Assembly (NCBI GenBank): GCA_963855995.1
Contig: OY979730.1
Span: 2,170,501 to 2,234,500 of the forward strand
DNA length: 64,000 bases
Reading direction: 5' to 3'
From: Muricea muricata
Taxonomy: Eukaryota; Cnidaria; Anthozoa; Malacalcyonacea; Plexauridae
A program made the translations under genes and the position numbers. The notes under the pieces were generated by a model. That model made no database searches. It saw only the letters and a list, made by a program, of their open reading frames with translations, and was not told the origin of the DNA. Of the stretch, positions 16,333-60,691 are shown piece after piece. The number at the start of each line of letters is the position of its first letter. Position 1 is the first letter of the stretch.

Positions 16333-16407
16333 GCTCGAGATTTCTATGCGGTGATAGTTGATGAGGGCAAAGCCCGAATCAACTATCACCGCATAGAAAT
16401 CTCGAGC
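16333..16407. repeat. Perfect foldback, 30-bp arms, GA-flanked mini-hairpin tip
   Basis: The arms 16333-16362 (GCTCGAGATTTCTATGCGGT...) and 16378-16407 are exact reverse complements. The 15-base tip is GA-GGGC-AAA-GCCC-GA, itself a small hairpin. The foldback is in Harbinger element A, in a segment that differs completely in element B, so it arrived or diverged after the copies split. Confidence 0.92.
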
Positions 16408-16520
16408 TCGTAATCTAATTGTTTTAGTAGAATCAGAGGTCAAACATGGAATATTCAACAAAAAATTTGATTTTCAGGCAATTTTTTAAAAGAAATCTCT
16501 ATAGGAAGATGATTGTTTCG

Positions 16521-16556
16521 CTACTCGCTATCTATCGAGGAATAGATAGCGAGTAG
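16521..16556. repeat. Perfect 15-bp hairpin
   Basis: CTACTCGCTATCTAT at 16521-16535 pairs with 16542-16556 over a six-base loop. It lies in the same segment of Harbinger A as the 16333 foldback; an 11-bp inverted pair (TAGTAGAATCA near 16425, TGATTCTACTA near 16594) encloses it. Confidence 0.85.
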
Positions 16557-17897
16557 AGTAACCAATCAAATTGCAGCATTTGCAATAGTATACTAGTATG
16601 ATTCTACTAATAGTGAATAAACTCATACAGATTGAAATATTTAAACTTTAACAACATTAGCCAAGTTGGTTTTAATCTAGGCTAACCCAGATTAGGTTTC
16701 ATGATGAAAATGACTTGAGTTTATTTATAAATTTATCCATACTGCAGAATTGAAGGCAACAAATTTGCAATTATATAGTGCAAATTTGATCATTTGAAAT
16801 TCATATATTCTTCATATATTTATATAAACTCGTATATTCTTCTTTTAGACAGATATTGCTTCGACAATTTGCCACACATTTGAATGATTTGTGCACATTT
16901 GATGCATTTGCATTTTGGCACCCAGGTGCAAATTTAATGTGAATCTGGTTTTTCATTTTATTTATGGGTTTCAAATAATCAAATTTGCACTGTAGCAAAT
17001 GTTTTGCTTTCACAGCATTTGCATTTTGGCACTGGGTTGAACATGTATTGCAAATCTAATTTTTCATCCTGTGATTCTGTAAGGGCCAGTCATTATTCAT
17101 GGTGGAGGTTTGCACCAAAGAGAAATGTCTCTTGCTAAAACCTTGCTGATTAAACCATTAAAATATTGAAGTAGTTTCTGTAACAAACTGCCACCTATAG
17201 CCAAAAACTTTACAAAAGGATACCATTAAGTTGTCACACGTGTATTTCATCACTTCTATGACCATGACATGAGTTTGATAACTGCTTGTTTTAATTATTA
17301 AATAGGTGACAGTGTAACCCCCACCATAAACAATGACCAGTATGACCAGTCCCAAAATATCCAGTAATCCATTTCCAGTACATGTCTTGACTTCGCTTTT
17401 CTTCATTAGCATATGTTTGCAAAATAAACATTTTAACATCTTTACACAAATCTGCTTGGCACTCCCGATACAGTCAGCGAGTCAGACAAACAAATTACAC
17501 AATTTAGCACATGTGACGTCCAGTGATCCAGACAAATCATTTGAAATTTACAAACCAACAAATTAGTACTTTCTTCAATAATGGTGAATGTTTGTATTTG
17601 TACGAAAAAAAGTACGATTGCTTTTATCACAGATCAGGCGCATTCTTCTGCAATTATTTGAATCGAATTTGTTAGCCACTGTTAAATAAACAAGACTTAA
17701 TTCATTTTAATTTATGTTAACTGCACCACGCGAGCCCCACACAAGTTAACTACGTGATTAGTTAACTATCCGACTAACTGCGTTTTGTGCAACGCAGTTA
17801 AGTCGTGCAGTTAACTAACTACGGTTAAGGATTTAACTAGGGTAGTTAACGCTAACTGCAGTTAACTTTAACTACTTTTTTATACAACCGGCCCCTG

Positions 17898-20529
17898 ATG
17901 CATAAATATTTGAATTTTATAGTTTCCATATTTATGTACGTGTATGATTTGAGAGCTGGACTGAATTTATAGCATCTACTTCAAAACCATGGACCTAGTT
18001 TATAAAATTAATTATAAAAATGAAAATTGTATACCAATGTCATATACCACCCAAGATCAATTTTAGCCACTAATCATTTGCTAAAATAATGTTCATTTTA
18101 TTCTAGCACCTTGAGCATGCATTAATGTGGAAAATTTGAAGATTAGAATTATGCTGAAGATATTAGTGAGACAGCATCGACCACAGAGATAGCCAAAGGT
18201 TTTAACTCTGCCTAACACGACAGCCTGTCTAACTACACTTATAGCAGATCCAGCCTACTACACCCTGTTGTTGAATAGGGATCAATTGATTTATTTAGTA
18301 TATGCTAATCATTGAAGATACAGATTTTAAACCTCGGAGATACATATATGTAGTGTGGATATTTCATGTATGACATTTCAAATACTACATTACTAATATC
18401 TACGACCCACTAATGCTTTATACTCTACATGTATAAAAATAAATTCTGTAGCATTTAATGTTTTTAACCGGTATATATAGTAATATATTTTACCTGCAGA
18501 GGAAATGTTGCAGATTTATTTCCAACATATCCATGTACAACATGGCTTTGAATAGATAATACACGGAAATCACACATTCTATGATATCGCCTTACAAAAT
18601 ACAATGCAATCTTGTAAAATCACAAATAAAAAAAAATACTGTATCACTGCATGCACTGGGCAACTGTGACTGTGCTATAAATTTCACCCCTCAAATCAAA
18701 GTCCAGCCCGCAAACGCCCGCATCTTCTTTGACCAATATATAAGATTTCCGCCAAAGCTAAATTTGACTTCAAAAAACCCACGGGTAAATGTCAATAAGG
18801 ATTATCTGCATAAAGACAAATGACTTATTAGATAGAAAATACTTAAACAAAATAGTTTCATATATTTCTTTTATAAGAACCATGCAAAATTATGCTACAT
18901 AAATTGAAGCTGACGTTTTCAGATTTTGACTGAAGTTTCTTTATCATTCATAGAATGGCTAAACCCGTCAAATCATCATCGAACAAACGTTGCTGAACTA
19001 TTTATAAAAAAAGTTATTAAATTAAACTTAGGAAATGTTAGCAGCACTATATGTATTGATATTTTCTTGTTATATAACATCATATATCATTGATAAATGA
19101 TAGGTGATAATTACACATTTTATGCTCCATCACCTCCACGTCAATATAATATTCTTGTCTTCAGGTGGACCAGGAATCTAACCAGGTAACCATTAAAACC
19201 TATTTGGTCACACGCTCATGGCTGCACAACTGCACAAGCATAAGAACTTTTACAGAAATGATAATCATTATGGCTTGATACGCAGGCTAAACAATAAATT
19301 AAGCCTGATGTGTAGATGTGGATGGTGAAATTGGAACCATTGATCACCATTCATCACTGATGCAAAGTTTTTATACTTAGGCCTGTCCAATGAGAATTCG
19401 TGTAATTTGTGAACTAAAATGCATGGTCCCAAACATGGCCACCCTTTTTTTTTAACGCGGGAAACCTAAACTAAGGCCTGATTTATATATACTGTACGTA
19501 CATTTCAGTCATGCGGAATGCAATTCAAACAATATACTAGCTAGACGATTTGCCTCGTTCTGTATTGTTTAAATTGTCAGGCCTTAATTACGGTAAAAAC
19601 CCTCGATACATGCAATTATTTATTTATTTATATAAATTTGCCAATGAAAAAACAACACATTACATACAGAAATAGTACATACGTATAGACCATTTACAGG
19701 GTACCTGGTATGAGGAGGTCTTGCATCGGTTTGTTAGACGATCAGGGTTGGGTCATATGGCTTCTCTTCTGTTGCTATTTGTTGTTGATGTCAGTAAATT
19801 TGTGTCATTTTTTTTCCATCCATTTTTTTTTCAAAGACAGTATGCCTGTATGGTGTAGCTTATACGCCGGATAAATAATAATTTTGTTTTTCTCAACAGC
19901 CTAAGAATGACGCAAGAAGTGCTCCTTACTTGGATTGAGTCGAAGATTAATGTTTGCCGAATTCTGAAAGTATATGTGAAGAATCACGGATTTCTTTTTT
20001 TCTATTTCTTTTTTATATTTTTTACATATAACTTTCAATAATACTATGTTGAGCTAACATTTAACTCAACATAGAAACATTCAGGCTCAGAAAACTGGTC
20101 TTAAACGAACACGCACATTCTATTTTATTGTTCTTTTTCCGGATTCGCCATTTTGTTTTTACTCTATATTTGTTTAATCCCAGAATTCCATATAGCCTGA
20201 TGGTCTGTATATCTGATCCGCGTTCTATAATACTATGGTCAGCACTTGTAGAGATACACACTACATATTACATTTATTATTATAATATTCCCCGAAGGGT
20301 GTTCCGGCAATATCTAATTTGTCTAATTACGTATTAATAAGCAAAAATTATCGATAATTTTCTAATTATACTAAAATAGTCTACATATTAAAATTATTTA
20401 CGCTAACTATCTACCAAATAGACGACACGGTCAGTTTGGACTTTGGTAGATGGAAAGAAGTGCTGACCATATATACTTGTTAGCATAAGCTCCATATATA
20501 CCATGAATAAGAACTCAAGCCAGTGCAAA
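17898..20529. other. Gene-free AT-rich stretch
   Basis: No exon chain found. Around 19611-19740 the minus strand has an (ATAA)n-type end following GGCAAATTTATA, compatible with a LINE 3' tail. Otherwise nothing stands out. Confidence 0.4.
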
Positions 20530-20670
20530 AGCCGAAGATGGTAGAAAGGAGCTATAAGACGTCAATCTTAATCCTCTGCGCGATCAAAATAGAGATATGT
20601 TGCTATGTTAACCGCGCAGAGGACTGAGATTGGCGCCCTATAGCTCCTTTAATTTCCGCCATCTTTGACT
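20530..20670. mobile_element. 141-bp MITE with about 53-bp inverted ends
   Basis: The left end (AGCCGAAGATGGTAGAAAGG...) and right end (...CCGCCATCTTTGACT) pair along about 53 bp, including GGAGCTATA and TCCTCTGCGCG. The loop is about 30 bp. No coding capacity. Confidence 0.78.
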
Positions 20671-21340
20671 TTACCTTTCTTAAGGCCGACTGACTAGAAT
20701 TCCTACTCCAGATATATATGGAGCTCTCTAATCTTGGTGGTGTGTGCAATGTAGCCTGGTTTCGATTTAGTTCTAACGGTCGCCGTAAACACGAAAGTTT
20801 CGACTAAATAGAAACCGACCATACATAGTTTTTTAAGTCATGTATTTTATAGTTATAAAAATCCTGACTGATCTCTTAGTATTTTTCGATTCTGATCACC
20901 TGACGATGAACTGTCGTTGTCGAAACCTGAAAGGCAATGTTAGTACCCGACCGAATTGGGACTTAAGGGTTGGGGCCCCCACCCGGGCCCATATACGTTA
21001 CCAAAAAAGACGTCCACCAATCCTTCTGTGTCCAACACTCGCGTACCTGAAACTTAACCTAGGTACCATTTGTACCGCTTACATTATAACATGCACTCCT
21101 AATTCATGCACTGCTAACATGCATTTTTGTTCAAAAATCAAAATAAGCTTAAGATTAAAGCTGAGTAACGTAATTTGTTCTTTCAAAATTGTTCATCAAC
21201 GAAATGGTATGCTCTTTGTAATTCTAATGAAAATTTGGTGGTAAAAATTGAACTGCTTAAGTCGTGTTGACATTACTCAGCTTTAACCCTCACCACCAAG
21301 ATTCTTCTGAAAGGTGTAATTAGCCGCAATAAAAAGAAAG

Positions 21341-21450
21341 CTATACTTGATTGAGAAACATACAACTACCTGTAACTTCCCGACAAAGGACCTTTTCTCA
21401 GAAGCTTTTACATTCATTTTCAGGTAGTTCCATTTTTCTCAATCAGAAGC
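21341..21450. mobile_element. Short inverted-repeat element (about 110 bp)
   Basis: TTGATTGAGAAACATACAAC...CTACCTG on the left pairs with CAGGTAGTTCCATTTTTCTC... on the right with a few mismatches. Non-coding. Confidence 0.6.
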
Positions 21451-22011
21451 TCCTCCATTCATTATTAAACTATTGATGTACACCTTTTTTCATGCACCTT
21501 GTTTTATGCCCATTCTACCCTTTCAGACCCTTGTTGTTCATCTTAATTTCAATTCCCTTTTTCCCTGTTGACCCCATACGTTCATTGAACGTACGCTTGC
21601 GTTTAATTTTTTTACCCTTTCAGCAATCCTGAAAGTCATTAGATATACAGACCGAACGCAAGTAATGATTTAAATTGTTCATCAGTCATTAACGTATGGA
21701 CATGTAAGTCAGTCAGTAACGTAGTCATGCTCAAGGAATTTTTCGGTTTGAGGAGATTTGTCTAATGAGGTCATATCATATGAGACATTGCTTGCCAAAG
21801 TAAAATGATATCATGCATTTCTAACTCTTTTTGTAACAAAATAAGGTTAGGTATCTTTCTTGTTGGGTTTTGTTGTTTCTGAATTTGTCAAGTTTGATTC
21901 GAATTTTCTCAAAAAGAATACAAAATGAATCAACTGGATTGAAATATAAGAGGTATTTCGTTAACGTTTTCTAAAATTATATACCAACAGCCAGTCTATG
22001 ACCTTATCTTC

Positions 22012-22206
22012 AACAAACCTTATAAACCCTTCATAAGTTTAATCCTACTATTTTTTTGCCAGTGATGGCGTTGATTTTTTAATCAGATTATAATGTCATG
22101 TTCATTTTAGTAATGCAATTTTTTCAGTTATAATCAAATTCATACAAGCAAGGAGAGCACAAAATCAAAATGATAGCTTAAACTTGTTTGAAGGGTTTAT
22201 AATGCC
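22012..22206. mobile_element. Inverted-repeat element (about 195 bp)
   Basis: TATAAACCCTTCATAAGTTT on the left pairs with AAACTTGTTTGAAGGGTTTA on the right. The interior is AT-rich and non-coding. Confidence 0.5.
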
Positions 22207-23243
22207 AAATATAAAAACCTACGACAGAATATCAGCATATATCAAATTCAATATAAGCAACCTCTGTCGTTATTGAAATGTTAATATATAGAAGTTCATG
22301 GATGCCGCGCAGTCATTGCTGTTTTACTTTTTTATTCATCAAAATCCGCCATGTTTGCCATTCACTCCTCTATATCATTTCAATAGTCCTTTCTGTTCTA
22401 CCAGGCTTGGTTTCTGCGCGTGCATTCTCATTTTGTTATTTCATTTTACATCATCACTATATGTTCTTGATACGTGCATTTTAAGAGTAGCAATGCATAT
22501 TTATGTGACTGTTTTTAACATGATTTATGCAAGAATGTACGTATGACGTGCATTTGAGGAGTAGCTTTGTGTATGAAGGTTATTAATTAACATTACGTCC
22601 TAGTGTTTAATGACCTAATTTGATGAGGAGTATAACTATGCATGTATTTCTCACATTTCTTATTTAATTTTTACCAAGCCTGAATTACTTCCATCTTATA
22701 TCACTCAAGACATTCCTGAGTAATGTTACTGAATGACTTCAACACATGTACATACTGTGGTAAATCATGCACTATAATTATAATAACCTATGTTAAAGCA
22801 GGCAATTCCTGGTGGTTGAGCACGGTTGCCTGGAAGAGAACCTTAGGAAATAGAGAAAAACTCTCTTTCCTCCAGTTGCTTCAAGCACAACCCCTAAATT
22901 TTGCCAATTGTCTGAACTAATATCTAATGAGCAGCATATATTAGTTTTGTAATCGAATATTATGCAACCTCCATAACATAAAACCTTTATACAACTCCGT
23001 TTCGAGCGCTTTAAGCGAAAGCCCTTCAAGGCCCTTTGTCGGAAAGTTAATAAATATCATGGACTTATATCCGATTCTTTAACCGGTTGCTCTCGACGAA
23101 AGACATTAATGACTAACTTAATCTAACCGTTTTCCAGACAAAATCCACTTAAATTCAGCTTAGTTATTCAACTTTAATTCTGACCACCAGGATTATATAC
23201 TAATTACCTTTTACCATTTGTGTCACCTTGTTGTCATTCGTCA

Positions 23244-23972
23244 GGCATCTGGTCATCTGGCACTGCTTATCTGGCATTTGGTCATCTGGTACTGTACGTC
23301 TGGCATCTAGTCGTCTGGTACTGGTCGTCTGACATCTGGTTATCTTCCCTGGTCGTCTGACATCTGGTACTTGCTGTCTGGAATCTGGTCATCTGGCACT
23401 GGTCGTCTTACATCTGGTCATCTGGCACTGGTCATCTGGCATCTGGTCATCTGGCACTGGTCGTCTGACAGCTGGCACTGGTCGTCTGGCATCGGTCTGG
23501 CACTGGTCGTCTGACATCTGGTCATCTGGCATCTGGCACTGGTCGTCTGGCCATCTGGCACTGGTCGTCTGACATCTGGTCATCTGCCCTGGTCGTCTGG
23601 CATCTGGTCATCTGGCACTGGTCGTCTGACATCTGGTCATCTGCCCTAGTTGTCTGGTATCTGGTCATCTGGCACTGGTCGTCTGGTCATCTGGCACTGG
23701 TCGTCTGACAGCTGGCACTGGTCGTCTGGAATCTGGAACTGGTCATCTGACATCTGGTCATCTGGCACTGGTCGTCTGACATCTGGTCATCTGGCACTGG
23801 TCGTCTGACAGCTGACACTGGTCGTCTGGAATCTGGAACTGGTCATCTGACATCTGGTCATCTGGAACTGGTCATCTGACATCTGGAACTGGTCATCTGA
23901 CATCTGGCACTGGTCGCCTGACATCTGGCACTAGTCGCTTGACATCTGGTCATCTGGCACTGGTGACCGGGC
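23244..23972. repeat. CTGG-rich minisatellite (about 730 bp)
   Basis: Scores of variant 9-11-bp blocks of the types CATCTGGTCAT, CTGGCACTGG and TCGTCTGACAT follow each other in shuffled order, with composite units near 20 and 30 bp. Purines and pyrimidines are unevenly split between strands. Open frames through it are artefacts of the repeat. Confidence 0.9.
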
Positions 23973-24119
23973 ATCTGGCTCTCGTTTTGACGATTTTCCT
24001 CCCCGTACACGTTTTAGATCATGCATGAAATCGAAATTATATATGCTAACTGAAAGCATTAAGCAACGGAAAGGCAAGAGCGATGGGATGGATGGCCTTA
24101 AAAACTGGTTTAATATATT

Positions 24120-26335
24120 TAATTTAATAATAAACTATAGAAAATTTATCAGCTGTCCGATTGCTGTTGTCTGTTCCACGGTTGCCATGTTATATAGAGT
24201 CATTTTGAAATGTCTCATTTTGATTGTCATTTTTTCGTTAATAATGTTCATCGAATATTATCTTCTCATGATATTAATTTTCTTCAAATGTTGTCCTCTT
24301 GCTATCAATCTTCCGTATTTGTAATTGTATTGCTCCATAGTAAGGGATAATCAACTCGAAATTCAAATAAACTCTAAAGCGGGTATTTAGAAGAAGAATT
24401 GTGCAAAGGAATATCGTGTTACACAGCTACCAACGAGATAAGAAAACGTAAATATTATGAGGAAAATAAAGAAAATAAAATCTAAATATTCATTTATAGT
24501 GGAGACTGGAGTACCAGTTTTAATTGACATTGCTTCATTAATGTTTCCAATGTTTAAACTGATTCTTCCCATGATATTAATTTTCTTCAAATGTTTTCCT
24601 CTCACAAACAGTCTTCCATAATTGTAATCGTTTTCCTCCATAGCTACGTTTGACAACCATTTCGAAGTACAAAGAAACTATACAGAAGGTACTTAGTACA
24701 GGAAAAATGGAATACCATGTCACGTAGTTACCAACGAGATAAGAAAGCGTAAATAACCAAAGGAAAATGAAAAAAAAAAGAAAATTTAGATATTCATTTA
24801 TACTGGAAGGCGCAGTACCCATTTTAATTGCAATCCTTCATTAATGTCTCCAATGTTCATCAGGCATTATCTTCAAATGGTCCAAATTTTCTTTAAATTT
24901 TCCCTCTCACAATCAATCTTCCATTATTAACGTTTGCTCCATAGTAATGTTTGATGCGTGGACTTCAAAACTTATTTACTATTTATTAAAATATTTACAT
25001 ATGTTTAATCATTATTATACTATCTAAAGTTTATCAGCTGTCCGCCGCTATTGTCTCTTCCACAATTTTAAAGTTCCGTAAAGAGTTAATATGAAATGGT
25101 CCACTTTTATTGTCATTCCTTCATTAGTATTTCCAATGTTCAATACACGCTCTTCTCATGATCCTAATTTTCTTCAAATGTTTTCCTCTCACAAACAGTC
25201 TTCCAAATTTTTAATCATTTTGCTCTATAGTTAAGTTTGAAAACCATTTCGAAGTACAAAGAAACTATACAGAAGGTACTTAGTAGATGAAAAATGGAAT
25301 AACATTTCACGTAGTTACCAACGAGATAAGAAAGCGTAAATAATCAAAGAGAAGTGAAGAAAGGAAGATTTAGATACTCATCTATGCTGGAATGCGCAGT
25401 ACCCATTTCAATTGCCATTCCGTCATTAATGTTTCCAATGTGCATCAGGCATTATCTTCTCACGATCCTTTTCCCTCTCAAAATCAATTTTCCATTATTA
25501 TCGTTTGTTCCATAGTAACGTTTGATGCGTGGACGTAACTGTTGACTATTATTATTACTTAACTATTTACTATTTATTAAAATATTTACATGTCTAAAAT
25601 TATCAGCTGTCCGATCGCTATTGTCTGTTACATGAAATGTTCCATCTTTATTGTCAATCATTCATTAGTATTTTCAATGTTCATGTAGCACCCTTTTCGT
25701 CATATTAATTTTCTTCAAATATTTTCCTCTCACAATCAATCTTCCACAATTGTTATCATTTTGCTCCGTAGTTGGGTTTGATAATCAGAATTTAAGAATG
25801 AAGTAAAGGAATATCATGTCATGTACTTACTAACGAGATAAGAAAACGTAAATAATCAAAGGCAAATGAAGAAAAGAAAATTTAGATATTCATTTATAAT
25901 GGAAGCCGGAGTACCCATTTTAATTGCCATTCCTCCATTAATGTTTCCATGTTCAACAGATTCATTTCATGATTCTAATTTTCTTCAAATGTTTTCCCTC
26001 TTTAAATCAATCTCCCATCTTGTTATCGTTTTGCTTAATTATCATTGATTATCAATTTGCTCATTATCACATTCCTTCACTAATGTTTCAAATGTTCATC
26101 AGACAGTATCTTCTTATGATCCTAATTTTCTTCAAATGTTTCCCTCTTACAATCAATCTTCCATCTTGTTATCTTCTTGCTTAATCATCACATTTGCTCA
26201 TTATCACATTCCTTCACTAATGTTTCCAATGTTTATCAGACATCTTCTCATAATCATATTTTTTTCCAATGTTTTCCCTCTCATAATCAACCTTCTATCA
26301 ACCAAGTTTGCTCCATAGCCAAGTTTGATAATTTT
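24120..26335. repeat. Degenerate satellite, about 300-bp units paired into a 587-bp period
   Basis: The block AATTTTCTTCAAATGTTTTC recurs near 24270, 24572, 24872 (diverged), 25160, 25703, 25970 and 26115. ACCAACGAGATAAGAAA (or a one-base variant) recurs at about 24429, 24729, 25316 and 25829. GAAGTACAAAGAAACTATAC recurs at 24664 and 25251, 587 bp apart. Units alternate between two subtypes, the mark of a higher-order repeat. No coding potential. Confidence 0.85.
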
Positions 26336-26714
26336 AAAGCAGACACGTACTAGAAGAGTTAAGTGAACAAAGATCATATAGATTGGAATACAACTGAAGG
26401 AAGGGCCCGAATTTGAAAGAACAAGGTATCAGTGACAGAATATCATCAAGGCTGCCAGTAAGACATGAAAACGTTCAAAAGAAAATGAAGGGAAGAACGG
26501 GAGGTCTGTGTTCTCTTAAGTTAATAAAGCAAGCCAGAGTACTCGAAGCAAACCTTTAAATTCCAAAAATAATTTTGTGCATATGATTGTATATGACAAA
26601 GTGCTGTAAAGGACAGTTACAATACGAAGACATGACAACACAACACAATACGATCGCAAGCGCGCGCAGGGTAAGTGTGAATCCGTGACGTCACCCCATC
26701 CACAACCTCATCCC

Positions 26715-28770: not shown

Positions 28771-28929
28771 GTAATAGTATAATTTCGAGTGCAATTACGG
28801 ATAAACAAGCACGAGTGAGTTTTTAAAAACTGCAAAATAGCACGAGTCCGAAGGACGAGTGCTATTTGCGGTTTTTAAAAACTCACGAGTGCTTGTTTTC
28901 CGTAACTGCACGAGAAATTATACTATTAC
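28771..28929. mobile_element. 159-bp foldback with about 72-bp arms
   Basis: GTAATAGTATAATTTCGAGT...ATAGCAC pairs with GTGCTATTTGCGG...ACTATTAC with few mismatches. The tip is GA-GTCC-GAA-GGAC-GAG, again a mini-hairpin between GA dinucleotides. Non-coding; no clear target duplication. Confidence 0.9.
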
Positions 28930-30832: not shown

Positions 30833-30834
30833 AA

Positions 30835-32349: not shown

Positions 32350-32459
<110 letters not shown>

Positions 32460-32462
32460 ATG

Positions 32463-32641
32463 TATCACAAACTAAACTTTGTAAATTCAAAATATTTTTT
32501 ATTATATTCACATCCCAACGTTTCGGGGCATGCCCCTTCTTCAAGGATGAATATCATCCTTGAAGAAGGGGCATGCCCCTAAACGTTGGGATGTGAATAT
32601 AATAAAAAATATTTTGAATTTACAAAGTTTAGTTTGTGATA
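32463..32641. mobile_element. Near-perfect 179-bp palindrome (foldback)
   Basis: The arms 32463-32550 and 32554-32641 (88 bp each) are reverse complements with one obvious mismatch (TTTCGGGG against TTTAGGGG), around a three-base centre ATA. Flanks are TA-rich on both sides, suggesting insertion into the (TA)n tract. Each arm holds GGGGCATGCCCC, itself a palindrome, next to AAACGTT. Read from the centre outward, CTTGAAGA / GGGGCATGCCCC / GAAACG is similar in layout to a hammerhead core, with one extra base. No protein is encoded. Confidence 0.93.
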
Positions 32642-32761
32642 TATTTATATTGATAATGGTATTAAACTTATTTGGAGAGGGGTTTGTGATATACTTATCT
32701 CATTCCTACCACCTCCTTCTCACCCCCCCCCAAAAAAAAAACACAAAAAAATTACAACTCT

Positions 32762-37568: not shown

Positions 37569-40123
37569 GGGCCCGTTGTATAAAGCTCTTAACTGCTTTT
37601 TAACTACCCAAAAAGTAGTTAAATAGTGGTTAACGTTAACCACGTAGTTAGGTTGGTTGTACAAAAAAGCAGTTAGTGTTAACTGCAGTTAAAAAGTAGT
37701 TAAAGTTAACTATCCTCAATGGCATAGTTAACTTCCCAAAACCTAGTTAAATATGGCAGCTGTATTAAGAGTGATCAACTTTCATGAGCGAGATAATACT
37801 GAAAGGCAACGCTTACCTAGAGTTTTTAATTGTCATCTTCCCTAGGAAGATTTCTCAGTTGAAGAACTCCTAAAACGCTATAGATTTGGCGGAAAATCCT
37901 TGCTTTTTATAGCGTGACTCATCGACCGGGAAGTGAGACCACTAACAAAGCAAAACCAGGCTCATCGCCTAAGACTTATAATTTTAGCAGTGGTAGTGGT
38001 TGGTGGTCTTGCTGCAGGTCGTCCACCTGTTTTCCTTTGAGACTGCATTATCCCAGAATTTGTTGGGTTTTTTTTGTCAATTTGGGCCATGCTTTGCTAT
38101 TTTCCCGAATTTCTATTGGTGTACGTTTTTCATAGCTGTTAATCTGGGAAGTAAATAGTTTCCCACAACTTTTGCTTTTTGGCATTGGTTATTGTGCTCG
38201 AAAATTGGCCCCGTAATGTGTCTAAATTTTGTTCAACTATATTAACCAGTAGGTTGCATTCTTCTGAATTAAAATTTTGTTTTCTTTTCTTTTCTTCCCT
38301 TATTTTAGAGTAGTTGCTTTTTGGGCAGACATTTTGAATTTGTGTGTATATGTAATTGAGTAATTCAACTTAATGTAACTGAGTAACTCAAAATACCTGT
38401 AAGCTTGGCAACTGTGGTTACATGGGAAAATATGACCTCAGACATGATACAAATACATACAGTGTGACATGAGTTGTATATTGACTTTTGTTACATCTGA
38501 CAACACATCAAATAAATATTGATTCTTGTGTATAACACAATATTGAAAAATATAGTGTACCATCTAATAGTGAATAAACTCATACAGATTGAAATATTTA
38601 AACTTTAACAACATTAGCCAAGTTGGTTTTAATCTAGGCCAACCCAGATTAGGTTTCATGATGAAAATGACTTGAGTTTATTTATAAATTTATCCACACT
38701 GCAGAATTTTCTACAAGATCTTGGGGGTGTAAAATCTAGGGGCAGGGGTGCAAAACAGTACAAAAGTAACCATGCAAATAGGTACCAAACACAGTAAAAT
38801 TTAGAGATTTGGGGCAGATTTAAGTTTTAATTGCTTAAATAATGAAGCACTTCCCAGGGGTACTAAAAACTTTTCCCCAAAAAATCTTGGGGGCAACTCT
38901 GACCAACTCTGCAGTCTGCTAACCAAGGATAGTACAATTCACAGGATGAAAAATCAGATTTACAATACATTTTCAACCCAGTGCCAAAATGCAAATGCCA
39001 TGCAGGCAACAAATTTGTTATTATATAGTGCAAATTTGATCATTTGAAAACTGATATATTCTTCTTTTAGACAGATATTGCTTCAACAATTTGCCACACA
39101 TTTGAATGATTTGTGCACATTTGATGCATGCATTTGCATTTTGGCACCCAGGTGCAAATTTTGTGTGAATCTGGTTTTTCATTTTATGTATGTGTTTCAA
39201 ATGATCAAATTTGCACTATATAGCAAATGTTTTGCCTTCACAGAATTTGCATTTTGGCACTGGGTTGAACATGTATTGCAAATCTGATTTTTCATCCTAT
39301 GACTCTGTAAGGGCCAGTCATTATTCATGGTGGAAGTTTGCACCAAACAGAAATGTCTTCTCTTGCTAAAAACTTGCTGATTAAACCATTAAAATATTGA
39401 AGTAGTTTCTGTAACAAACTGCCACCTATAGCCAAAAGCTTTACAAAAGGATACCATTAAGTTGTCACACATGTATTTCACCACTTCTATGACATGAGTT
39501 TGATAACTGCTTGTTTAATTAATTAATAGGTGACAGTGTAACCCACACTATAAACAATGACCAGTCCCCCAATATCTAGTAATCCATTTCCAGTACATGT
39601 CTTGACCTCGCTTTTCTTCATTAGCATATGTTTGCAAACTAAACATTTTAATATCTTTACACAAATCTGCTTGGCACTCTCGATACAGTCAGTGAGTCAC
39701 ACAAATTACACAATTTAGCACATGTGACGTCCAGTGATCCAGACAAGTTTTGGCCAGTTTTAAGGTCGAAATTTACAAACCAACGAAATAGTACTTTCTT
39801 CAATAATGGTGAATGTTTGTATTTGTACGAAAAAATGTATAACGGTTGCTTTTATCACAGATGAGGCGCATTCTTCTGGCAATTATTTGAATCGAATTTG
39901 TTAGCCATTTTTAAACAAACAATACTTAATTTATTTTAATTTATGTCAACTGCCCCACGCGAGCCACACGCAAGTTAACTACGTGATTAGTTAACTATCC
40001 GACTAACTGCGTTTTGTGCAACGCAGTTAAGTCGTGCAGTTAACTAACTACGGTTAGGGATTTAACTAGGGTAGTTAACGCTAACTGCAATTAACTTTAA
40101 CTACTTTTTTATACAACCGGCCC
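37569..40123 (+). mobile_element. Harbinger element B (2.56 kb, degenerate)
   Basis: Inverted ends GGGCCCGTTGTATAAA / TTTATACAACCGGCCC with CAG on both sides (37566-37568 and 40124-40126). It is collinear with element A over most of its length. The transposase start at 37754 is broken by a TAG where element A has Trp (LPW in A), and by further stops. B differs from A in a replaced segment (about 38400-38570) and in an extra block of about 290 bp at 38709-39000. That block completes a nested inverted repeat: 38940-39002 pairs with 39240-39300 (CATTTGCATTTTGGCACTGG). Confidence 0.85.
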
Positions 40124-40133
40124 CAGATCTGTG

Positions 40134-52300: not shown

Positions 52301-55300
52301 ATACCACGTAAGTTTATCATCGCAAAGCTTTCGATCCGTAAGCTCGGATCTTTATCAGTGCTTGCAATAATGCGACTAATTTAAATGTAAAAATGTTATG
52401 TGGTGCACAACACATGCATGATTTAATCTTTCTAATCATTTCTATTTTTTATTTCTCTGGCTAATCTCTTCAAAAATGTCGTGGATGCTATTAACCCTCA
52501 CGTGTTCAGAATACGGATATTTTTAATCATGATCATGTCGCAGATAGGCAGGCATCTTTAGAAACACGTGCCAGTTTATATATAGTTATTTTTCTCAGCT
52601 GTGTTCCCAGTCCCAGATCTTGAACGTTTATCTTTCGTTACAGGCGAAGACAGCACGAGATGATTGTGTGGCTGCATTGGATGCCAAAAATCTCACGGGC
52701 TCAAACGAAACATGTAGAAGTTTAGATGAATATTTAAGTGACGTAAGTAATGTAACAAGTTTCACCAAGTCCAACATTTTGCCCCCAACAAAGGCAATGA
52801 CCAATAGCGTGCACATTTAAGATAGACAATTTTTGAGAAGACAACATGACAACCTTTTTCTATTGTCTATATATATCAGAGACTCGTTTAAAAACGCCCT
52901 AAATTTTGACCAGCGATTGCTCTAAGCTGGTTTTGTTACCATTTTTTGAATTGGGAACATATTTGAACAACATTTCAAATGTTGTCGTTAACTTAACGTG
53001 AGCGGTCTTGTTGCATTAAAATGAAATCCTTCGCCTTCTCCTCCGCAATATTCAACACAACGAAGCCTCTCGTATTGTTAGCCTTACACAAAAATCAAGA
53101 CTCCCAACTCTAGAAAAGCTTTTCCAATGGATCTTTAACGTTTTGAGCGAAATTTTGAAAAAATCGAAATAGGAAAAAATGTTACCACAGCTTGAAAGAG
53201 CATCCTAAACTTAGTAAAATTGCAAAGTTTGGTTGTAAAATGTTGTGAACTATAGAAAATATAGCCTTGCGAGGTTGGCAAATTTCCTGTAGTTAAAGTA
53301 TTATCCGTGAGAAATGAATACCCAAGGGTATCAACTGGGTATTATTTTCCACCCGTAATACAAATTTATACAAAATTTGCCAAATTCGCAAGGCTGCATT
53401 TTCCATATTTTTCACAGAACATTTCACAACCAAACTTAGCAATTTTACTAAGTTTAGGATGCTCTTTCAAGATGTGTTAATATTTTTGCCTGTTTCGAAT
53501 TTTTTCAAAATTTGTCTAAAAGGTTAAAGGTCCGTTCGAAGAAGTGGCGGCAACTTCAGCTTATGCTGCGATGTCGTTTCCGAGCGTTTTCATTTTGAAT
53601 TACTTCTAAAAGTTGTCGACTTGTTGACATAATTTAATGAAAACTAGTGTGTACCTCGTCTAAGGACAAAAACGAAACACTCATGCGATGAGAATTTTTA
53701 TAGTTCATGTTTTCATTTTGGCTGTTGTGAAAACGCTCGGAAACGACTTCGTGTGCGCATAAGAGTGGTTCAGATTTGGCTTTCAATACCTCTGCCGCTA
53801 CCTTAATCTAGCTTTCAGCCAATCAGATGTGTCGGACCTATCCGATTAACCAATCAAATTGTTTAAAAATGGGAAGCGGTAGGGGTAGAGGAAGTCAAAT
53901 CTGAACCTCTCTAGAGTCTTGAATAATGTTTGTTAGGTTGCCTCCGGAACCGGATTGTCATTTATCGCATTCACCGAGGCGATAACGAAGATGCCTGCTC
54001 CGCAAGTCTGGTCTGTGCTGTTCTTCTGTATGTTGATCACATTAGGATTGGGTAGCATGTTTGGAAATATCTCCGGAGTCCTTACACCGATACTTGACAT
54101 GGGTTTAGTAAAGATAAGAAAAGAATATCTCAATGGTGGGTAACGGTTTTTAATATTTCATATAATTTATTTATATAATATTTACATATTAAAGAAACAG
54201 ACTATTTACAAAAAATGGGCTGGCAGTCCACTAGAACCTTATGGCTTTTGTTTTAGACCCCTGGGTTATAACTATTTTAAATAGTTTTGTTATTGTATAG
54301 TGTCAGTGTGAGTGCTTTTAGATTATAAATCTAGTACAAGATAGTAGACATAAGATGATAAGATGTTTAATTGATAAACTCATGACTGGCTACGTTTTTT
54401 TCGGATACTTGCTAACTTGGGACGCAATGATATTGACAATGGCAAATTGTGTCGAGGATGTCAAACGTTTGCAATTTCTTTGTAGTTATCGGGATTTTCT
54501 CCCGTTAGTGAACAAAAATTTGCTTGCGCCCAAACGTTTGAAGTAGGCGTTGTTCGTCATGGGATGCTCTCGAATTTGCAAGACAAGTTACAAAAGCCAT
54601 GTTACGAAAACAATCTCTTCAGCCACGTTGCGAAAAGTTGATTGAAATTCAACATTATTGCGACTTGCCTTGTCATGTTGGTAGCAAGATCGTAGAAACT
54701 CTGTAAACACAATTGGTTGTAAGACAAGAACAGGATATTTCCATTTATTGACGGAAATTTTAAATCTTTCTTCATTCTATAGCTATCGTTTCTGCAGCAT
54801 TGTTCCTAATTGGTCTGTTGTTGTGTCAGAATTCCGGGGAATACTGGCTACAACTCTTTGACTCGTATTCCTTGAACCTCGCACTTCTCTGGATTGCCCT
54901 CTTCCATCTCATTGGCATGAATTTCTTCTATGGAACAGAGAGGTATTTATACTGATAGTTTCTCCTGTATGAAACATTGTTGCGTATAATAGATCTATGC
55001 TGACCATTTTGTTCGTATTCTTTAGGTTTAGGGATGACGTGGAATACATGACTGGTAGGAGACCTGGATTGTATTGGCTGATCACGTGGCGATATCTCGG
55101 TCCAGTTCTTGCATTATTGCTCTTCATTGCTGGTCTCTATGACTTGGGCGCAGATGGGATAAGCTATACTGTGTGGCGTAAGGAGGAGGTATGAGAGAAG
55201 CCTGGGACTAGGACTAGTATATAGATATAGAATGCGTACTAGGGCACAAATCATGTTCCACTTTTTGCCCAGCATGCCCTTCGAAATTTGCTATATTTGA

Positions 55301-55877
55301 TTTGCTCCTCGTGCAATGAGCTCTTGGCCGCGCGAGATTCCTTGGCACAAGAGATTGGGACGAGCCAAAATTCCGTTCGAAATTTGAGAAAACATAGAAG
55401 TACGCGTTCTATGCATGTCGACGATTTCCATGACCCTGTCTCTCAGCTCTAACTCAGGGACATCGTGAGACATGTATAGAAAAAATTTTGGCTATCAAAA
55501 CTTGTTAGCCACAGGCTTGCTACAAGTTCTTTCAACACTTTTTGTACCTTTCATGAAGAAGTTGACAATTTGGAACAAGCCTAGTAAAATCTGTGCCGCT
55601 TTTGGCTGTTTAGTTTTGCCACATGTACGTCAATTTTTAGGGAAAGACGGCAGCAGGTGTTGAATTTCCAGGCTGGGGCGAGGCGTTGGTCATTATATTT
55701 ATATGTGCAGCACTAATTTGGATCCCCCTCTTGGCGATTCTTCGCTACTTCGGATTATGTGCACATGAAGGCAAAACGACAGACACCAATTTCCAGAAAA
55801 CTACGTCGAGACTCGAGCTGACGGATTACACCGACGGAAAACCAATCCCGAACGAGCAAATGGACTGCAAATTTTAA
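43335..55877 (+). CDS. Sodium-dependent neutral amino acid transporter, SLC6 family (SLC6A18/19/20-like)
   Basis: Nine coding exons join in frame to 629 residues: 43335-43587, 48360-48817, 49138-49248, 52042-52251, 52644-52742, 53937-54135, 54783-54942, 55026-55188, 55641-55877. TM1 carries the family signature NVWRFPY (71-77) after GFAVGLG; Gly rather than Asp at the substrate position (68) excludes a monoamine type. [49 protein letters not shown] and [13 protein letters not shown] point to the B0AT/XTRP branch, which imports neutral amino acids or imino acids with Na+ (and Cl-) at the plasma membrane. N-glycosylation sites lie in the large second external loop (NRS) and exon 5 (NLT, NET). 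TM8 reads LGLGSMFG (413-420), where relatives usually have Ser-Thr or Asp-Ser at the Gly-Ser of the Na2 site. The exon 5 loop is only about 33 residues. Introns hold several MITEs and a nested GPCR. Confidence 0.93.
45367..45495 (+). repeat. Inverted-repeat element with hammerhead-like centre (SLC6 intron 1)
   Basis: CTTTCCCTACCTGGAACGAT... (45368-45417) pairs with the text ending GGTAATGAAAGG (45450-45495). Near the centre of the + strand are CTGCGGA (45435-45441), AGGGCTTCGCAC, and GAAACGTC (45454-45461), a decayed CUGANGA / helix II / GAAAC-GUC order. The right arm recurs at 42778-42830 and 31271-31320. Confidence 0.5.
45766..46753. mobile_element. 988-bp foldback element with about 350-bp arms (SLC6 intron 1)
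   Basis: The left arm 45766-46115 and right arm 46400-46753 are reverse complements over nearly their whole length, starting ACACTTGAGTAAACTGACAA. The arms contain internal repeats of ACCAC(G)-CGTTTGA(G/C)A type. The 284-bp loop is non-coding. It resembles a long-TIR MITE or foldback; no target duplication could be fixed. Confidence 0.9.
48056..48239. mobile_element. MITE family 1, copy 2 (SLC6 intron 1)
   Basis: AAAGCCTG...CAGGCTTT ends with TIRs of about 29 bp (TTGTCGTAAGAATCGG / CCGATTCTTACGACAA). The body matches the copy at 10360-10533 in the same orientation. It ends 120 bp before exon 2. Confidence 0.85.
48941..49034. mobile_element. 94-bp MITE (SLC6 intron 2)
   Basis: GTGAGCTCCATATATCTCTG... 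pairs with ...CAGATATATATGGAGCTCAC over about 32 bp. A related end (CCAGATATATATGGAGCTC) is at about 20709-20727. Confidence 0.82.
49764..49893. mobile_element. 130-bp MITE (SLC6 intron 3)
   Basis: Ends of about 45 bp pair: TAGAAGTCCTTACGTCACGC on the left, GCGTGACGTAAGCACTTCTA on the right, plus inner GAATTGCAATGCAA / TTGCATTTATATGCATTG. Non-coding. It lies about 500 bp upstream of the nested GPCR. Confidence 0.78.
50385..51314 (+). CDS. Intronless orphan class A (rhodopsin-like) GPCR nested in SLC6 intron 3
   Basis: Single exon, 309 residues. N-terminus with two N-glycosylation sites (NFS at 6 and 12). TM1 has the conserved Asn (42); TM2 LAD with Asp 72; TM3 ends with DRF (121-123), a DRY variant; TM6 has TVP in place of CWxP; TM7 has canonical NPIIY (281-285), followed by helix 8 [10 protein letters not shown] and a short tail. 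The family couples extracellular ligands to heterotrimeric G proteins at the plasma membrane; the ligand is not predictable. GC content is visibly higher than the flanking intron. It lies wholly in the 2.8-kb intron 3 of the SLC6 gene, on the same strand, and has an AATAAA at 51709-51714 that would end its own transcript inside the host intron. Intronless receptors are common in cnidarians and consistent with origin by retroposition, but no poly(A) trace or target duplication was seen. Confidence 0.92.
   Translation: MVAGLNFSFVANFSTAFNVGQVPINGFIISEIVLAALAILLNTTLLFVLYKNPLKRFRSPFNVFITSMALADTLTAISLLLSKVLSFVTYPLPTVAEVLLGCFLVSGTQSSFLVATCLTLDRFMAVTCPFRHKVFMSTRRACFANLAIWMVSLSLDPLVNIEPKFLVLWFQIYAAEILCLCVTSIVIYPAILMKFRKAEARRTTSITCEPRQKWRDNRMRLKKNLTCTVLLITVAMVIFTVPYFLSSLFVWFSCNRCLLSPVFLQLLVFYRIFYVIYFGINPIIYAWRLREYRRALSILLCGRRIGSNR
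51709..51714 (+). terminator. Candidate poly(A) signal of the nested GPCR
   Basis: AATAAA 395 bases after the receptor stop codon, before exon 4 of the host gene at 52042. Confidence 0.4.
52319..52363 (-). ncRNA. Hammerhead-ribozyme-like motif (SLC6 intron 4)
   Basis: The minus strand reads CTGATAA, A, then GATCCG-AGCTTA-CGGATC (a perfect 6-bp stem), then GAAA-GC-TTT-GC. It is a sibling of the 28641-28678 motif, with similar text beyond the GAAA side (ATAA(A/G)TTT, TTTGTGG). CTGATAA deviates from CUGANGA at the invariant G, so this copy is probably inactive. Confidence 0.35.
53129..53533. mobile_element. 405-bp inverted-repeat element (SLC6 intron 5)
   Basis: Arms of roughly 150-160 bp pair: GAAAGAGCATCCTAAACTTA on the left, TAAGTTTAGGATGCTCTTTC on the right, with matching text on both sides including AATTTTGAAAAAAT and GCCTTGCGA. 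The loop near 53285-53370 is AT-rich. Non-coding. Confidence 0.87.
53557..53763. mobile_element. Inverted-repeat element (SLC6 intron 5)
   Basis: GTCGTTTCCGAGCGTTTTCA on the left pairs with TGAAAACGCTCGGAAACGAC on the right, extended by CTTATG / CATAAG. It abuts the next element. Confidence 0.75.
53763..53911. mobile_element. 149-bp MITE, ends 25 bp before SLC6 exon 6
   Basis: GAGTGGTTCAGATTTGGCTT... pairs with ...AAGTCAAATCTGAACCTCTC over about 40 bp, including CTCTGCCGCTACC / GGTAGGGGTAGAG. Only 25 bp separate it from the exon 6 acceptor, so it must contain or displace the branch-point region. Confidence 0.82.
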
Positions 55878-58800
55878 AGTATGTATTTTCCTTGAAATGC
55901 CGGCCTAATTCCTCGAAAATTGGAGTGAATGTAGTCAACAAAGGAATTCTTGAAATTTTACGACGACTTCCTGAAATTTCCAAAAATCTTTTCAAACGGG
56001 ACAGTTTCTAACAGGCTGTATAATGTAAATAGTTTTGATTCTGCATAAAATAGAAAATGCTGTTAAAATGTCTTAATTTTTAAACGTTTTGTTAAGATTT
56101 TTGAAAATGTATAGGCAAGATATATTAAACGATGCTTTCCATGCATAGTAACGTTTTGTCGTGCACTCATGAAGTACAAGTCCTATGAATATTAGCATCT
56201 TCCACCATCTGAAGCGATATAAGAAGAATTTAAGAGACCATCAAGTTGATGGAAAATAGAAATGACTTTTTTAGTAATTCTTTATTTGCCTTATATTGGA
56301 AATGCGAGTAATCGCTTAATTTGGCGATAAATTCCAAAACTGGTCTTTTTTCACAATCAGATAACGCCCTTCTCCCTAACAATTTTCTACCCGGATTTCA
56401 ACGTTTTGAAAAATGTTTCTTGGACGAATGGTGGGGGGGGGGTCAACCGCCCCCTTGCCCCCCCCCCCTTGCTACGCCCCTGATTGCAGTGAAATGTTTG
56501 CTGAAATCGATTGTAAGTGGGCATACAATGCAAGCAACAAAATGAATGACGAAATTTAGTTTAATAGGCACTTTAAGAGCGTATCGGCCGGAACAATTAT
56601 AACTATAAGATTGGAATTGTATTCATCTGTTGTGAAATCGGTTCATTAATTTGGTGGCAATATAAAATATGCATGACAAAGCGGAAATAAAACGTTTCTG
56701 CGGCGGTGAAAAGCACTAATAGCGGCCCATTGTAGCAAGATTTTACAGCTGGCCATTGCAGCAACTAAATATGAGTTTCCTGCTATGTATAAAACGTTTT
56801 AAATCAGTTTTAAATTTCCTGCCGATTGCATGGTAGTAGAATTCATCCATCACACAAAGCTACTTGTTCTAACACTAAATAATGCAATAACATCAGAGCA
56901 TGCATTTGAGCTTGTCGTTATATAATATAAATGCTTTTTTACATCAAACAGAAATGTTAACGTGCAAATTGCAGGAAGTCTGATGCAGGCTTTTTTACTT
57001 AAACCGCGTATATCAGCACGTTTCGCAGGCTTGCATCGCCGGTTTGATAACAAGACTGCATTTTTATGATAAATTTGGGAAAGTGAAAAACGTAAAATTT
57101 GGCGTCAAATTACTTCGAAGTAAGCAATTAAGTTAGAAGTTTCCAGTTGACTTTCTTTCTCATATAAACATAGAGTTGCAAAAAGCGTTCAACCTTCCTC
57201 CAGGCAAAATTTTCAAATTTTACAAACCTTCTTCAAAATGTTGGGCGTTCCAAACTGAAGATCAGAATGAATCTTGGAAATGTATACCTATTTTTTTCAG
57301 ATAGAAGACATGATTTCTGGACTAGATCATCATTTATCATTTTTTTTGTTATGTTAGTGTTCAGGATACATTATGTCGTGTGTCGTCATAAAACCTTTTT
57401 TTTGCAACTCTGTATAAACACAATGTTATACTGTCATCTGTCGGCTTGATATTAGTTTATAATTATCAAAATGTTTATAATAGAAGAGTTGCGATAAAGG
57501 TAAGCGACTGGAAACACTCCAGCATTGAAGAAATGAACAAATATTTGTCAAAATTTTCTTTTTTTTGAGAAATTCTTTGGAATTGTTTGAAATGTAACCT
57601 TGATGACAATATGCATTCTGCCATTGAAATATTGATTCTGCAATGTACGAATCGTATTTTTTTAGAGTTCCAACTACATATATGTAATTATACCAAACAC
57701 TAGGTTCATCATTGCCGATCGTTACCTCACTAATTACCTCAATAATTGTCAAATGGTGAACCAATTCCGGTCTAGCCAGGTCCAAACCTACCAGAAAAGC
57801 GCATTTGATAGATAACTGCTATTAAACAGCAAAAAGGGTATCTTAATAATATTTATATGGAGTTTTGTGCCTGCGTCCGCCCAGCGCTGTCAATTTGCAA
57901 GAGAAAACAAATCAAATTCAATTTCCTAATGATAGGACGAATTTACCAAGCCCACATCCTGATCCTAATTGCTCCCATCTTAATTTTCTTCGTGCTTAGT
58001 GCGAAAATATCATTAAAATCATGTCTGATTGAATTTTAATATTCAATTTATAGACAAGATGATATAATAAAGTTCCGGCTCATTTAGTTCATTATCTCTT
58101 ATAGGTCTTATAGGTCGGTTTAGGCTGTCTCAGTAAATAGGAACATTGCGCATGTAAATCTAATTTGTGTTGTTTTGAATGAACTTTAAAAGTCAAGTTA
58201 GTTAAGTATACCTCGTGTTTCGTCAAATGTAATACAAACAATAGTTAATGCAGACAATTCGTCTTATGATCTTTGTATAGAATACACTATAAAAATATTG
58301 CAAAATATTATAGGTTGCCTGCAGTAATTATATGTGACCGAGTCTTCGAAAAAAGCCTACCATATCAAAAGTTTATGTATTTATAATTATTGAACAACTA
58401 TAATATTTCAACCAGAAAAGAACACTAATGGACACATCTACGAGTTAAACTATAACGGCCCCTTTGGTCTGTATAGAAGTATGGAATAAATTAATTTTAT
58501 AGTTTTGAGTTTATAAATAAATTTAACAATGTTGCAATAAACAGCTGTGTGCCATGCATGAGTTTCGGTAGTTTCCTTGTAAAACGAACTGAACAATATT
58601 GTAGACCACATATTCAAGAAACCCTCATGTAATTTCAGTCGATCATACGACTAAGCATGCTAATGTATGTAAAAATCTATAATTTCGTGTATGTACAATT
58701 GTACCCGTGTATATTAAATTAAAAACATTTTCGTCCGTCGCGACCATGTCGCGACCTGTCGTAAAAAACGAATTACGTAGTCATAGCAAATATAGAAATA

Positions 58801-60642
58801 TGAACGCAATCAGGACCAGTTGACGATGTAGATAACCGAGCTTCTTTGTCGAAAAAACACAAAAACGCGCATTTCTATATTTCAAGATTGTAGATATAGC
58901 ACCTGCCCACTCCAATTAGAGATAATGTTGTTGAGGTGTGGGATAGATCAAACGTAATCTACCCAAGTGTTATCGATGAATAATTCATACAGGCAGTAGA
59001 AAACAGTGTGTTTTTTCGGCACAGCTAGATAGCAAACAAAAATTTGCCAACAACGAGTCGAATTCATTTCGAGCACCCCAACTGTGCGAAAGCAAAGGAA
59101 GGTGGCCGAATCGATAGAGCGCGACGGTGGATCGATAAACCTTGGTTCATGAGTGAAATTAGCGATGTAATTGCAACGATTTGTTGGTATTAAGCCTCAA
59201 GGTAAGAATCTACAGATGTATAGTATACTCTCAAACGAAACTTTGACCCACACGGGTTGTTTTAGGTTTAGAAATGCACCTTCAAAAGAGCAGGTGGGAA
59301 GTTCAATGTTTCGTTGTCTAAAATTACCGGCGACAAATTGTTATTATTGAGCATATATCCAGAAGTGAGCCCCTTTTTCGAAGTAAATGTATACATGAAA
59401 TCGTATTCATTGGTATCCCAAATGGAAAACTACTATAGCTTCCAATTTTATACAGGAAAATTGTCGTTGGCCTTGTCCTCTCTTGAGGAGCTAAATGGCA
59501 TCTCGCCAGTTTAATTTAGCAGTTGCTTGATGCAATTGTTCAATCTCTGATTCTGAAAACATGCTAGAAGGGATTAGGAAAACTAGCTCACGTATTACTC
59601 GACTTTTACACCAGTGTGTATGATTAAAAAATTCCTTTAACGGCAATAGAAAACGTTGATGTTTCGGGAAAAGAGATTAGTTTGCAACTCAATTGTCGAC
59701 GAAGAACCTTGCATTATAATATCGGCTTTCCGGCGTAATCAACGATTGCCCGTCCTATACAATCAGAACGATCAAAAAGCATCTTAACTGGTATGCTATG
59801 CTCAAATTAAAAACCAGCAGCTCACAAGCTAGCTTACAAAATGCTTGTGCTTTTTGAGGGCGAAATGTTCGCGAAATTCTGTTAATATCTTAGGACCACA
59901 GTACCAAAGGTTTGCATTATTGCGATTTGTAATTAAGATAGCGTAGGCATACATTGAATATTTTGGGAAGAAAAGTATTTTTTGCAATTAATTTGTGATA
60001 TATTGCATAAGTAAATAGTCATTATCAAAAATATAAAGGTTTTGGCACGTTTCACGAACACATTACCATTGTTGACATGATAAATCAACAAGGGACAGAA
60101 AGACGCAAATTGAAATTACAGAAATTGAAATATGAATGATTTATAGACTGTATAGCAGAAGGTAATCAAGATTTTATTGGGAGTTATATATGTCTTACTT
60201 GGCAACAAAATCTTCTTTTCTTTGCAAGAAAGAATTTAATAATATTTGAGTACTGTATTTGTCTATTTGACAAGCATTGGAAAAAACGTCAAGGTTGTAT
60301 TTTAATATAAAATGATTATCTAAGACTCATTTTCTTCTCTCATGATCTCATCAATTTGAAAGACACGTTCCGCGAGCACCTTCACTGGCACAGGTAGTTC
60401 GCTTAACGTTGGTAGTACATGCTAATATATTGGCACTGCGTCAGTGCCTAGAGGCGCTTAAGAATGTTTAAAACGGTATTATGTGCACAGTGCGGCAATG
60501 AATTGACCATTTACAAGCAAGCGAATATTTGACAGAAACTTAAGTCAATTATAATCGCTTTAGTTGCCAAACACGCTATATAGTATACAAATAATGAATG
60601 TTTATGAGTGCAATGGTAAGAATACTTTCATGAGGTGGACGA

Positions 60643-60691
60643 TTGATTGTTCCATTCAACTCGGCTTCGCCTCGTTGAATGGAACAATCAA
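60643..60691. repeat. Perfect 18-bp foldback with mini-hairpin tip
   Basis: TTGATTGTTCCATTCAAC (60643-60660) pairs exactly with 60674-60691. The 13-base tip is TC-GGC-TTC-GCC-TC; on the minus strand it reads GA-GGC-GAA-GCC-GA. Confidence 0.9.

Follow-up and report, generated by a model that had tools for sequence, protein, structure and literature searches.

Three foldbacks, here termed A, B and C, in a 64,000-nucleotide stretch of the genome of the cnidarian Muricea muricata (GCA_963855995.1, contig OY979730.1, positions 2,170,501 to 2,234,500 of the forward strand; the whole stretch is referred to as the window) are interrupted by two-base mismatches that mostly place GA opposite GA. When each left arm was aligned to the reverse complement of its right arm and runs of two mismatched bases were counted, seven of the nine runs in the three elements were GA/GA, compared with none of 14 in eight control inverted repeats (Fisher p 1.5e-4, the runs not being independent if the elements share descent). 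The controls were picked by hand from the inverted repeats of the window (one listing of which gives 25 of 308 pairs), with AT microsatellites left out. The explanation tentatively favoured here is that A, B and C are palindromic foldbacks resembling miniature inverted-repeat transposable elements (MITEs), one folded strand of which may be functional and marked by GA/GA.

All seven GA/GA runs lie in a pyrimidine-GA-purine context, either C-GA-G/C-GA-G or T-GA-G/C-GA-A; this type of context favours tandem sheared G.A pairs. The tips of A, B and C each have one such level and the arms of B and C have two more each (Table 1). Along the left side, successive loops are 26 and 31 bases apart (B) and 26 and 29 (C); along the right side the spacings are 30 and 25 (B) and 29 and 26 (C). 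GA/GA is therefore not a feature of the tips alone, as it appeared in the preliminary description, because B and C each carry the same interruption further along their arms. Two transversions per GA/GA are needed from a perfect arm, and the remaining mismatches are mixed. A local flip of a small palindrome (CACTCGTG to CACGAGTG) is a plausible source for the middle loop of B only, and was dropped as a general source because the other loops do not have flanks with three complementary bases.

Table 1. Foldbacks A, B and C with their tips and internal GA/GA loops (positions in the window).
Feature	Positions	Strand	Description
Foldback A	16332..16408	+	31 perfect arm pairs, GA/GA, 4-pair stem, AAA loop
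Tip of A	16363..16377	+	T-GA-GGGC-AAA-GCCC-GA-A
Foldback B	28771..28929	+	Three GA/GA loops nested along the arms, which also have two bulges of a single base, one A.C and one T.G
Outer GA/GA loop of B	28787..28913	+	GA at 28787 and 28912; C-GA-G on both sides
Middle GA/GA loop of B	28813..28888	+	GA at 28813 and 28887; C-GA-G on both sides
Tip of B	28844..28858	+	C-GA-GTCC-GAA-GGAC-GA-G; GA at 28844 and 28857
Foldback C	60577..60757	+	Extent from gapped arm alignment; clean core inside decayed outer arms
Outer GA/GA loop of C	60606..60728	+	GA at 60606 and 60727; T-GA-G / C-GA-A
Middle GA/GA loop of C	60632..60702	+	GA at 60632 and 60701; T-GA-G / C-GA-A
Core of C	60643..60691	-	18 perfect pairs and tip C-GA-GGC-GAA-GCC-GA-G at 60661-60673; GA at 60661 and 60672

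The three tips, first described as GA, a short stem, an AAA or GAA triloop, the returning stem and GA, agree letter for letter with the sequence at the positions given in Table 1 (the third on the minus strand); the extent initially assigned to the third foldback stands as that of its core, but the foldback as a whole reaches to about 60577-60757. With the tip pattern defined as GA, a stem of 3-6 pairs, GAA or AAA, the stem and GA, and with 60 dinucleotide shuffles of the window as the null, four tips were found in the window, compared with a shuffle mean of 0.73 and maximum of 3. Three of these have arms of at least 3 pairs (9, 18 and at least 20 pairs, the last being 31 by arm alignment), as against none in all 60 shuffles, and the fourth is armless. 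When any triloop was allowed, GA/GA flanks gave 16 tips in the window, 4 with arms of at least 3 pairs, whereas seven other flanks (AG, AA, GG, CA, AC, TG and GT) together gave a single tip with such arms (AA) and none with arms of at least 5. The C-GAA-G loop, known from d(GCGAAGC) as that of a very stable DNA mini-hairpin, is present in two of the three tips; foldback A has C-AAA-G.

Related tips were found well beyond this genome. Scans used the pattern CACGAG-N4-GAA-N4-CGAGTG, which, like the variants of it, fixes three closing pairs outside each GA/GA-flanked tip; the readout was whether one N4 is complementary to the other, which is expected by chance in 1 of 256 matches. In viral contigs the N4 segments pair in 5 of 24 matches (0.09 expected) and, with AACGAG/CGAGTT closing, in 3 of 39 (0.15 expected); in prokaryotic genomes they pair in 15 among the 120 matches listed (0.47 expected). 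Viral controls gave no pairing among the 120 matches listed with AG/AG flanks, 2 of 100 with AA/AA flanks (both in one tandem repeat), and no full pairing in 44 with a CTT loop, 14 of which have three of the four pairs. The viral GA patterns thus differ from the three controls (8/63 vs 2/264, p 4e-5), including when pairing cases, and only these, are collapsed by family (5 vs 1, p 0.001). The proposal that some mechanism makes or recognizes such tips, or keeps them, therefore survives in part, in that distant GA-flanked GAA hairpins exceed chance and the viral controls do not; its other component, the long free arms, is well shown only in the window.

The 15 prokaryotic cases comprise seven from a Deferrisomatales bacterium, four from Rhodopseudomonas rhenobacensis, two from a Clostridia bacterium and two singles. 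The Rhodopseudomonas copies resemble repetitive extragenic palindromes (REPs), with an interrupted stem ATTCCGGG/CCCGGAAT outside a GA-GCAGC-GAA-GCTGC-GA tip; the stem is varied in one of the four copies and CGTC precedes one copy. One Deferrisomatales locus is MITE-like, its tip being enclosed by terminal inverted repeats of 19 bases. In two viral contigs of similar sequence in the foldback region (L573, 11125-11187; L575, 2098-2160), outer arms of 15 pairs, GATATTAAACTACAT, are followed by an asymmetric interruption and a GA-GCCAC-GAA-GTGGC-GA tip. A scan of viral contigs with GAGGGCGAAGCCCGA gave at least 123 matches in at least 120 stretches, and 9 of the 123 listed have at least 4 further perfect pairs, some being near-identical copies; ACTCGGCTTCGCCTCGT (24 stretches) and ATGAGGGCNAAGCCCGAAT (1 stretch) gave no arms like those of the window, i.e. 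at most 2 further perfect pairs. None of eight viral loci has an Rfam match at gathering score.

Two further arrangements were noted in these collections. A GC-rich viral contig (L132, about 7690-7755) has three chained hairpins with GNA loops (GTCC-GGA-GGAC, CGGC-GGA-GCCG and GGAGC-GAA-GCTCC), the last being GA-flanked. A 29-base hairpin, ACTGACCACGAGTACTGAAAGTACGAGTG, occurs once in one phage contig (L135) and twice in another (L142), and in two of these three places is followed by a second GA tip, AGC-GA-GCCCC-GAA-GGGGC-GA-GCT.

How GA/GA might mark one strand can be outlined from knowledge of DNA structure. The GA/GA strand would be expected to fold as an almost continuous helix, with the complementary strand carrying TC/TC mismatches; the loops may in this way give the palindrome a strand identity, whereas a perfect palindrome has no strand distinction. 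When the region becomes single-stranded, during replication, repair or transposition, the GA strand would fold, and might then either be resistant to hairpin-cutting or serve as the substrate to which an enzyme of the element that reads structure binds, such that copies with GA/GA loops could spread and persist. Perfect palindromes are generally unstable and carry no strand information, and their persistence and spread in eukaryotes are poorly understood; if the proposal is correct, a sequence-constant mismatch that keeps the fold of one strand and weakens that of the other would solve both problems. Predicted RNA folds are more stable for the plus than the minus strand by 7.0 (B), 6.0 (C) and 0.7 (A) kcal/mol, and the same comparison with DNA energies gives predicted differences of 2.7 (B), 3.0 (C) and 0.3 (A) kcal/mol. 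In its widest form, which appears rather improbable, the proposal is that GA/GA loops about 26-31 bases apart together with a GNA-looped tip constitute a single-stranded DNA code with repeated origin in animals, bacteria and phages, which would confer strand identity on a palindrome, such that a hairpin-reading enzyme, perhaps an unrecognised eukaryotic relative of the Escherichia coli HUH transposase TnpA-REP, or else hairpin-sparing repair, would act on a single strand.

Several observations weigh against the proposal that one folded strand is functional and marked by GA/GA. The sample is three foldbacks from a single window, in which no further copy of A, B or C is present; their flanks are AT-rich, with no clear target-site duplication seen, and no transposase, including Y1 HUH types, was found among the 15 open frames of the window tested in Pfam. 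The tip of C lies on the strand opposite to its outer GA loops, and folding energies for the core of C alone favour the minus strand by 2.1 kcal/mol with RNA parameters and the plus strand by 0.1 kcal/mol with DNA parameters; the idea of a single preferred strand thus fails for C, except if the core arose as a younger foldback inside an older one. Such nesting is weakly indicated: none of the 21 pairs in the core is mismatched, whereas the outer arms have 10 mismatches in about 60 columns, a number counted by eye (p 0.057; 0.028 if 50 columns are taken). GA/GA is not singled out by the ViennaRNA DNA energies, ranking 14 of 144, with AG/AG at 11 and TC/TC at 101, although in our judgement these energies model sheared pairs poorly. 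Nor was a general excess of GA/GA found among hairpins, where it is rare: it makes up 2 of 54 distinct 2x2 loops and, in a larger count from 4.87 Mb of phage and bacterial DNA, 2 of 117, in both counts at loci chosen by tip pattern rather than randomly and with searched cores masked; both GA/GA loops among the 117 belong to one element. The mismatch is not obligatory either, since two hairpins next to C that have the GAGTGCAAT start of the outer module of B and C (see below) pair it perfectly as GA/TC. With respect to the wider collections, the prokaryotic cases come from only five genomes and the controls with which they are compared are all viral. Adjacent pairs beyond the fixed three number 3-5 in the seven Deferrisomatales cases, 0 in the other eight prokaryotic cases and 0-1 in the eight viral cases; the tip on long free arms is therefore well shown in this window only. 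Among REPs, moreover, a second group consists of perfect palindromes, and systematic evolution of ligands by exponential enrichment only moderately selected the E. coli mismatch bases (excerpts of PMC8266576).

The strongest alternative is that the foldbacks belong to one diverged MITE family, in which GA/GA was fixed by accident in an ancestor and has been inherited, now without function; for all three elements this seems somewhat unlikely, but for B and C it is a serious rival. The arms were originally described as unrelated, and a single diverged family, named there as contrary to the reading, may in part be what they represent. The original description holds for A, which shows no similarity to B or C in whole-element alignments (122 and 41 of 200 shuffles, respectively, score as high), and perhaps not for B against C, which have in common an outer module, GA-GTGCAAT...CTGCAC-GA, of 24 nucleotides (23 on the right of B) with the same A.C mismatch. 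Support for this is modest: ungapped identity in the module is 12/24 on the left (permutation p 0.010) and 11/23 on the right (p 0.017), the two sides not being independent. Whole-element alignment does not discriminate, since the score of B with C is reached by 9 of 200 shuffles and, among the 10 element pairs compared, that of C with a hairpin at 16515 is reached just as often. The similar spacing of the GA/GA loops in B and C also favours common descent, as does the fact that GAGTGCAAT, with which the outer module of both begins, likewise starts hairpins at 60929 and 60962. By contrast, B and C are unlike each other in their inner arms and in their tips, which lie on opposite strands; the pyrimidine-GA-purine context is kept in all seven loops, and bacterial repeats of other sequence also bear GA-flanked GAA tips.

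The hairpins at 60929 and 60962 adjoin one another (60929-60991), being GAGTGCAATGG...ATTGCACTC and GAGTGCAATGGAA-CATT-TTCCATTGCACTC linked by CTAG. The hairpin at 16515 (16515-16562) lies about 100 bases past foldback A and has arms CTACTCGCTATCTAT and a CGAGGA loop.

A second alternative, snap-back synthesis, appears unlikely. On this model a 3' end folds at any very stable mini-hairpin (GA-stem-GAA-stem-GA) and is extended with its own strand as template, with arbitrary upstream sequence becoming the arms and no dedicated enzyme being involved; this would account for a shared tip on differing arms, and for the perfect pairing nearest the tip in A (31 pairs) and in the C core (18). Precedents include hairpin-mediated foldback inversions in yeast (excerpts of PMC7467729) and the extension by DNA polymerase theta of stem-loops initiated by two terminal base pairs (excerpts of PMC11292364). 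What it leaves unexplained are the GA/GA loops away from the tips, i.e. the middle and outer ones in B and in C: copying yields a perfect arm, and loops lying 26-31 bases further out are thus not made by hairpin priming alone. A simple hairpin-terminated replication intermediate, one of the possibilities raised at the outset, does not account for B, for the same reason.

It is also conceivable, though quite improbable, that the feature operates at the RNA level, i.e. that tandem G.A pairs stabilize an RNA hairpin transcribed from the foldbacks. For B and C it is the GA strand that has the more favourable predicted RNA energy, and one of the viral hits is a tip of the same type in the contig of an RNA phage, beside the coat gene (L143, about 2110-2132; coat and maturation proteins assigned by Pfam), where, the phage being an RNA phage, it can act only as RNA. 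Against this, no Rfam family matches A, B or C at gathering score, C bears GA loops on both strands, and G.T wobbles on the plus strand of B and C together (5, counted from the arm alignments) are not clearly above A.C (3). With the E-value limit raised to 5, matches of the three foldbacks are mainly to microRNA models, some at low E-values (mir-36, 1e-5; MIR6288, 3.7e-6) but below cut-offs, and such low values are what long hairpins give in general; a precursor of a known microRNA was rejected, with no family matching at gathering score. T-GA-G...C-GA-A also opens and closes stem II of the hammerhead ribozyme, a candidate likewise rejected, with no Rfam match for it even at E up to 5.

That the foldbacks reflect chance, or the choice of striking cases in the preliminary description, might be argued from there being only three cases, two of them possibly related, but is highly improbable given that no shuffle of the 60 gives such a tip with arms of at least 3 pairs and that there is an independent excess in the viral and prokaryotic collections.

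The window itself is animal-like, with 36.5% GC, genes for two rhodopsin-type receptors and, in two pieces, a sodium:neurotransmitter symporter gene (Pfam); no tRNA was found in it. It also contains a near-perfect palindrome (96%) at 32449-32655, with 102-nucleotide arms and a 3-nucleotide centre, adjoining a long (TA)n run, and a GTTAACT-rich 200-base repeat in two copies of 96% identity (17700-17899 and 39929-40128), which includes TCGTGCAGT.

With respect to known systems, the likeness to the d(GCGAAGC) mini-hairpin is limited to the loop, and within that to the tips of B and C. In the dodeca-satellite of Drosophila, one DNA strand folds back with tandem G.A pairs; that is a tandem satellite, whereas the elements described here are dispersed palindromes with, in B and C, a GAA tip. 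In general architecture, A, B and C resemble eukaryotic foldback elements and palindromic MITEs: they are non-coding, and most of each short element is taken up by inverted repeats, near-perfect and separated by a minimal spacer or none, as a MITE or foldback transposon requires. No clear terminal duplication and, within the 64 kb, no further copy was seen, and GA/GA punctuation of foldback or MITE arms was not encountered in the portions of the open-licence literature consulted.

A GA bubble inside a palindrome is also found in the left-end hairpin of the parvovirus minute virus of mice (MVM), where a GA doublet lies opposite GAA in a terminal palindrome that is copied into duplex; origin activity is found in the duplex copy that carries the doublet and not in that with the triplet, the sequence of the doublet being said to be unimportant (excerpts of PMC1185569). 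MVM thus has one asymmetric GA/GAA bubble in a terminal hairpin, whereas the GA/GA loops here are symmetric, repeated and sequence-constant, and all three foldbacks lie in the interior of a window of 64 kb that has animal-type genes.

In the E. coli REPs, which are short palindromes, an internal two-base mismatch (A12A13-G26C27) is required for activity of TnpA-REP, an enzyme that acts on an imperfect single-stranded hairpin in a strand-specific manner (excerpts of PMC8266576); in the GTAG-24 repeats of Pseudomonas aeruginosa, unpaired GA breaks up the stems (excerpts of PMC3733652). A, B and C are likewise imperfect hairpins with an internal mismatch, a likeness that extends to the group 2 REPs only. 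By contrast with REPs and their associated tyrosine transposases (RAYTs), they are in an animal-like genome, their arms have 31 perfect pairs (A) or about 75-80 bases a side (B) compared with 5-13 pairs in REP stems, and their GA/GA loops are repeated at intervals of 26-31 nucleotides, the E. coli mismatch being AA/GC. No GTAG or CGTC foot is present on either strand in the 12 nucleotides flanking each end of A, B or C, whether the narrow or the wide extent is taken; when the core of C is considered by itself, its left flank does have a minus-strand CGTC. Membership of the REP/RAYT system is not supported, there being no such foot beside A, B or full-length C and no such enzyme found among the 15 open frames tested. 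The parallels with TnpA-REP and with the parvoviruses are analogies, and it is by analogy that the E. coli HUH transposase TnpA-REP may provide the closest working model for an activity that would read one folded strand of A, B and C.

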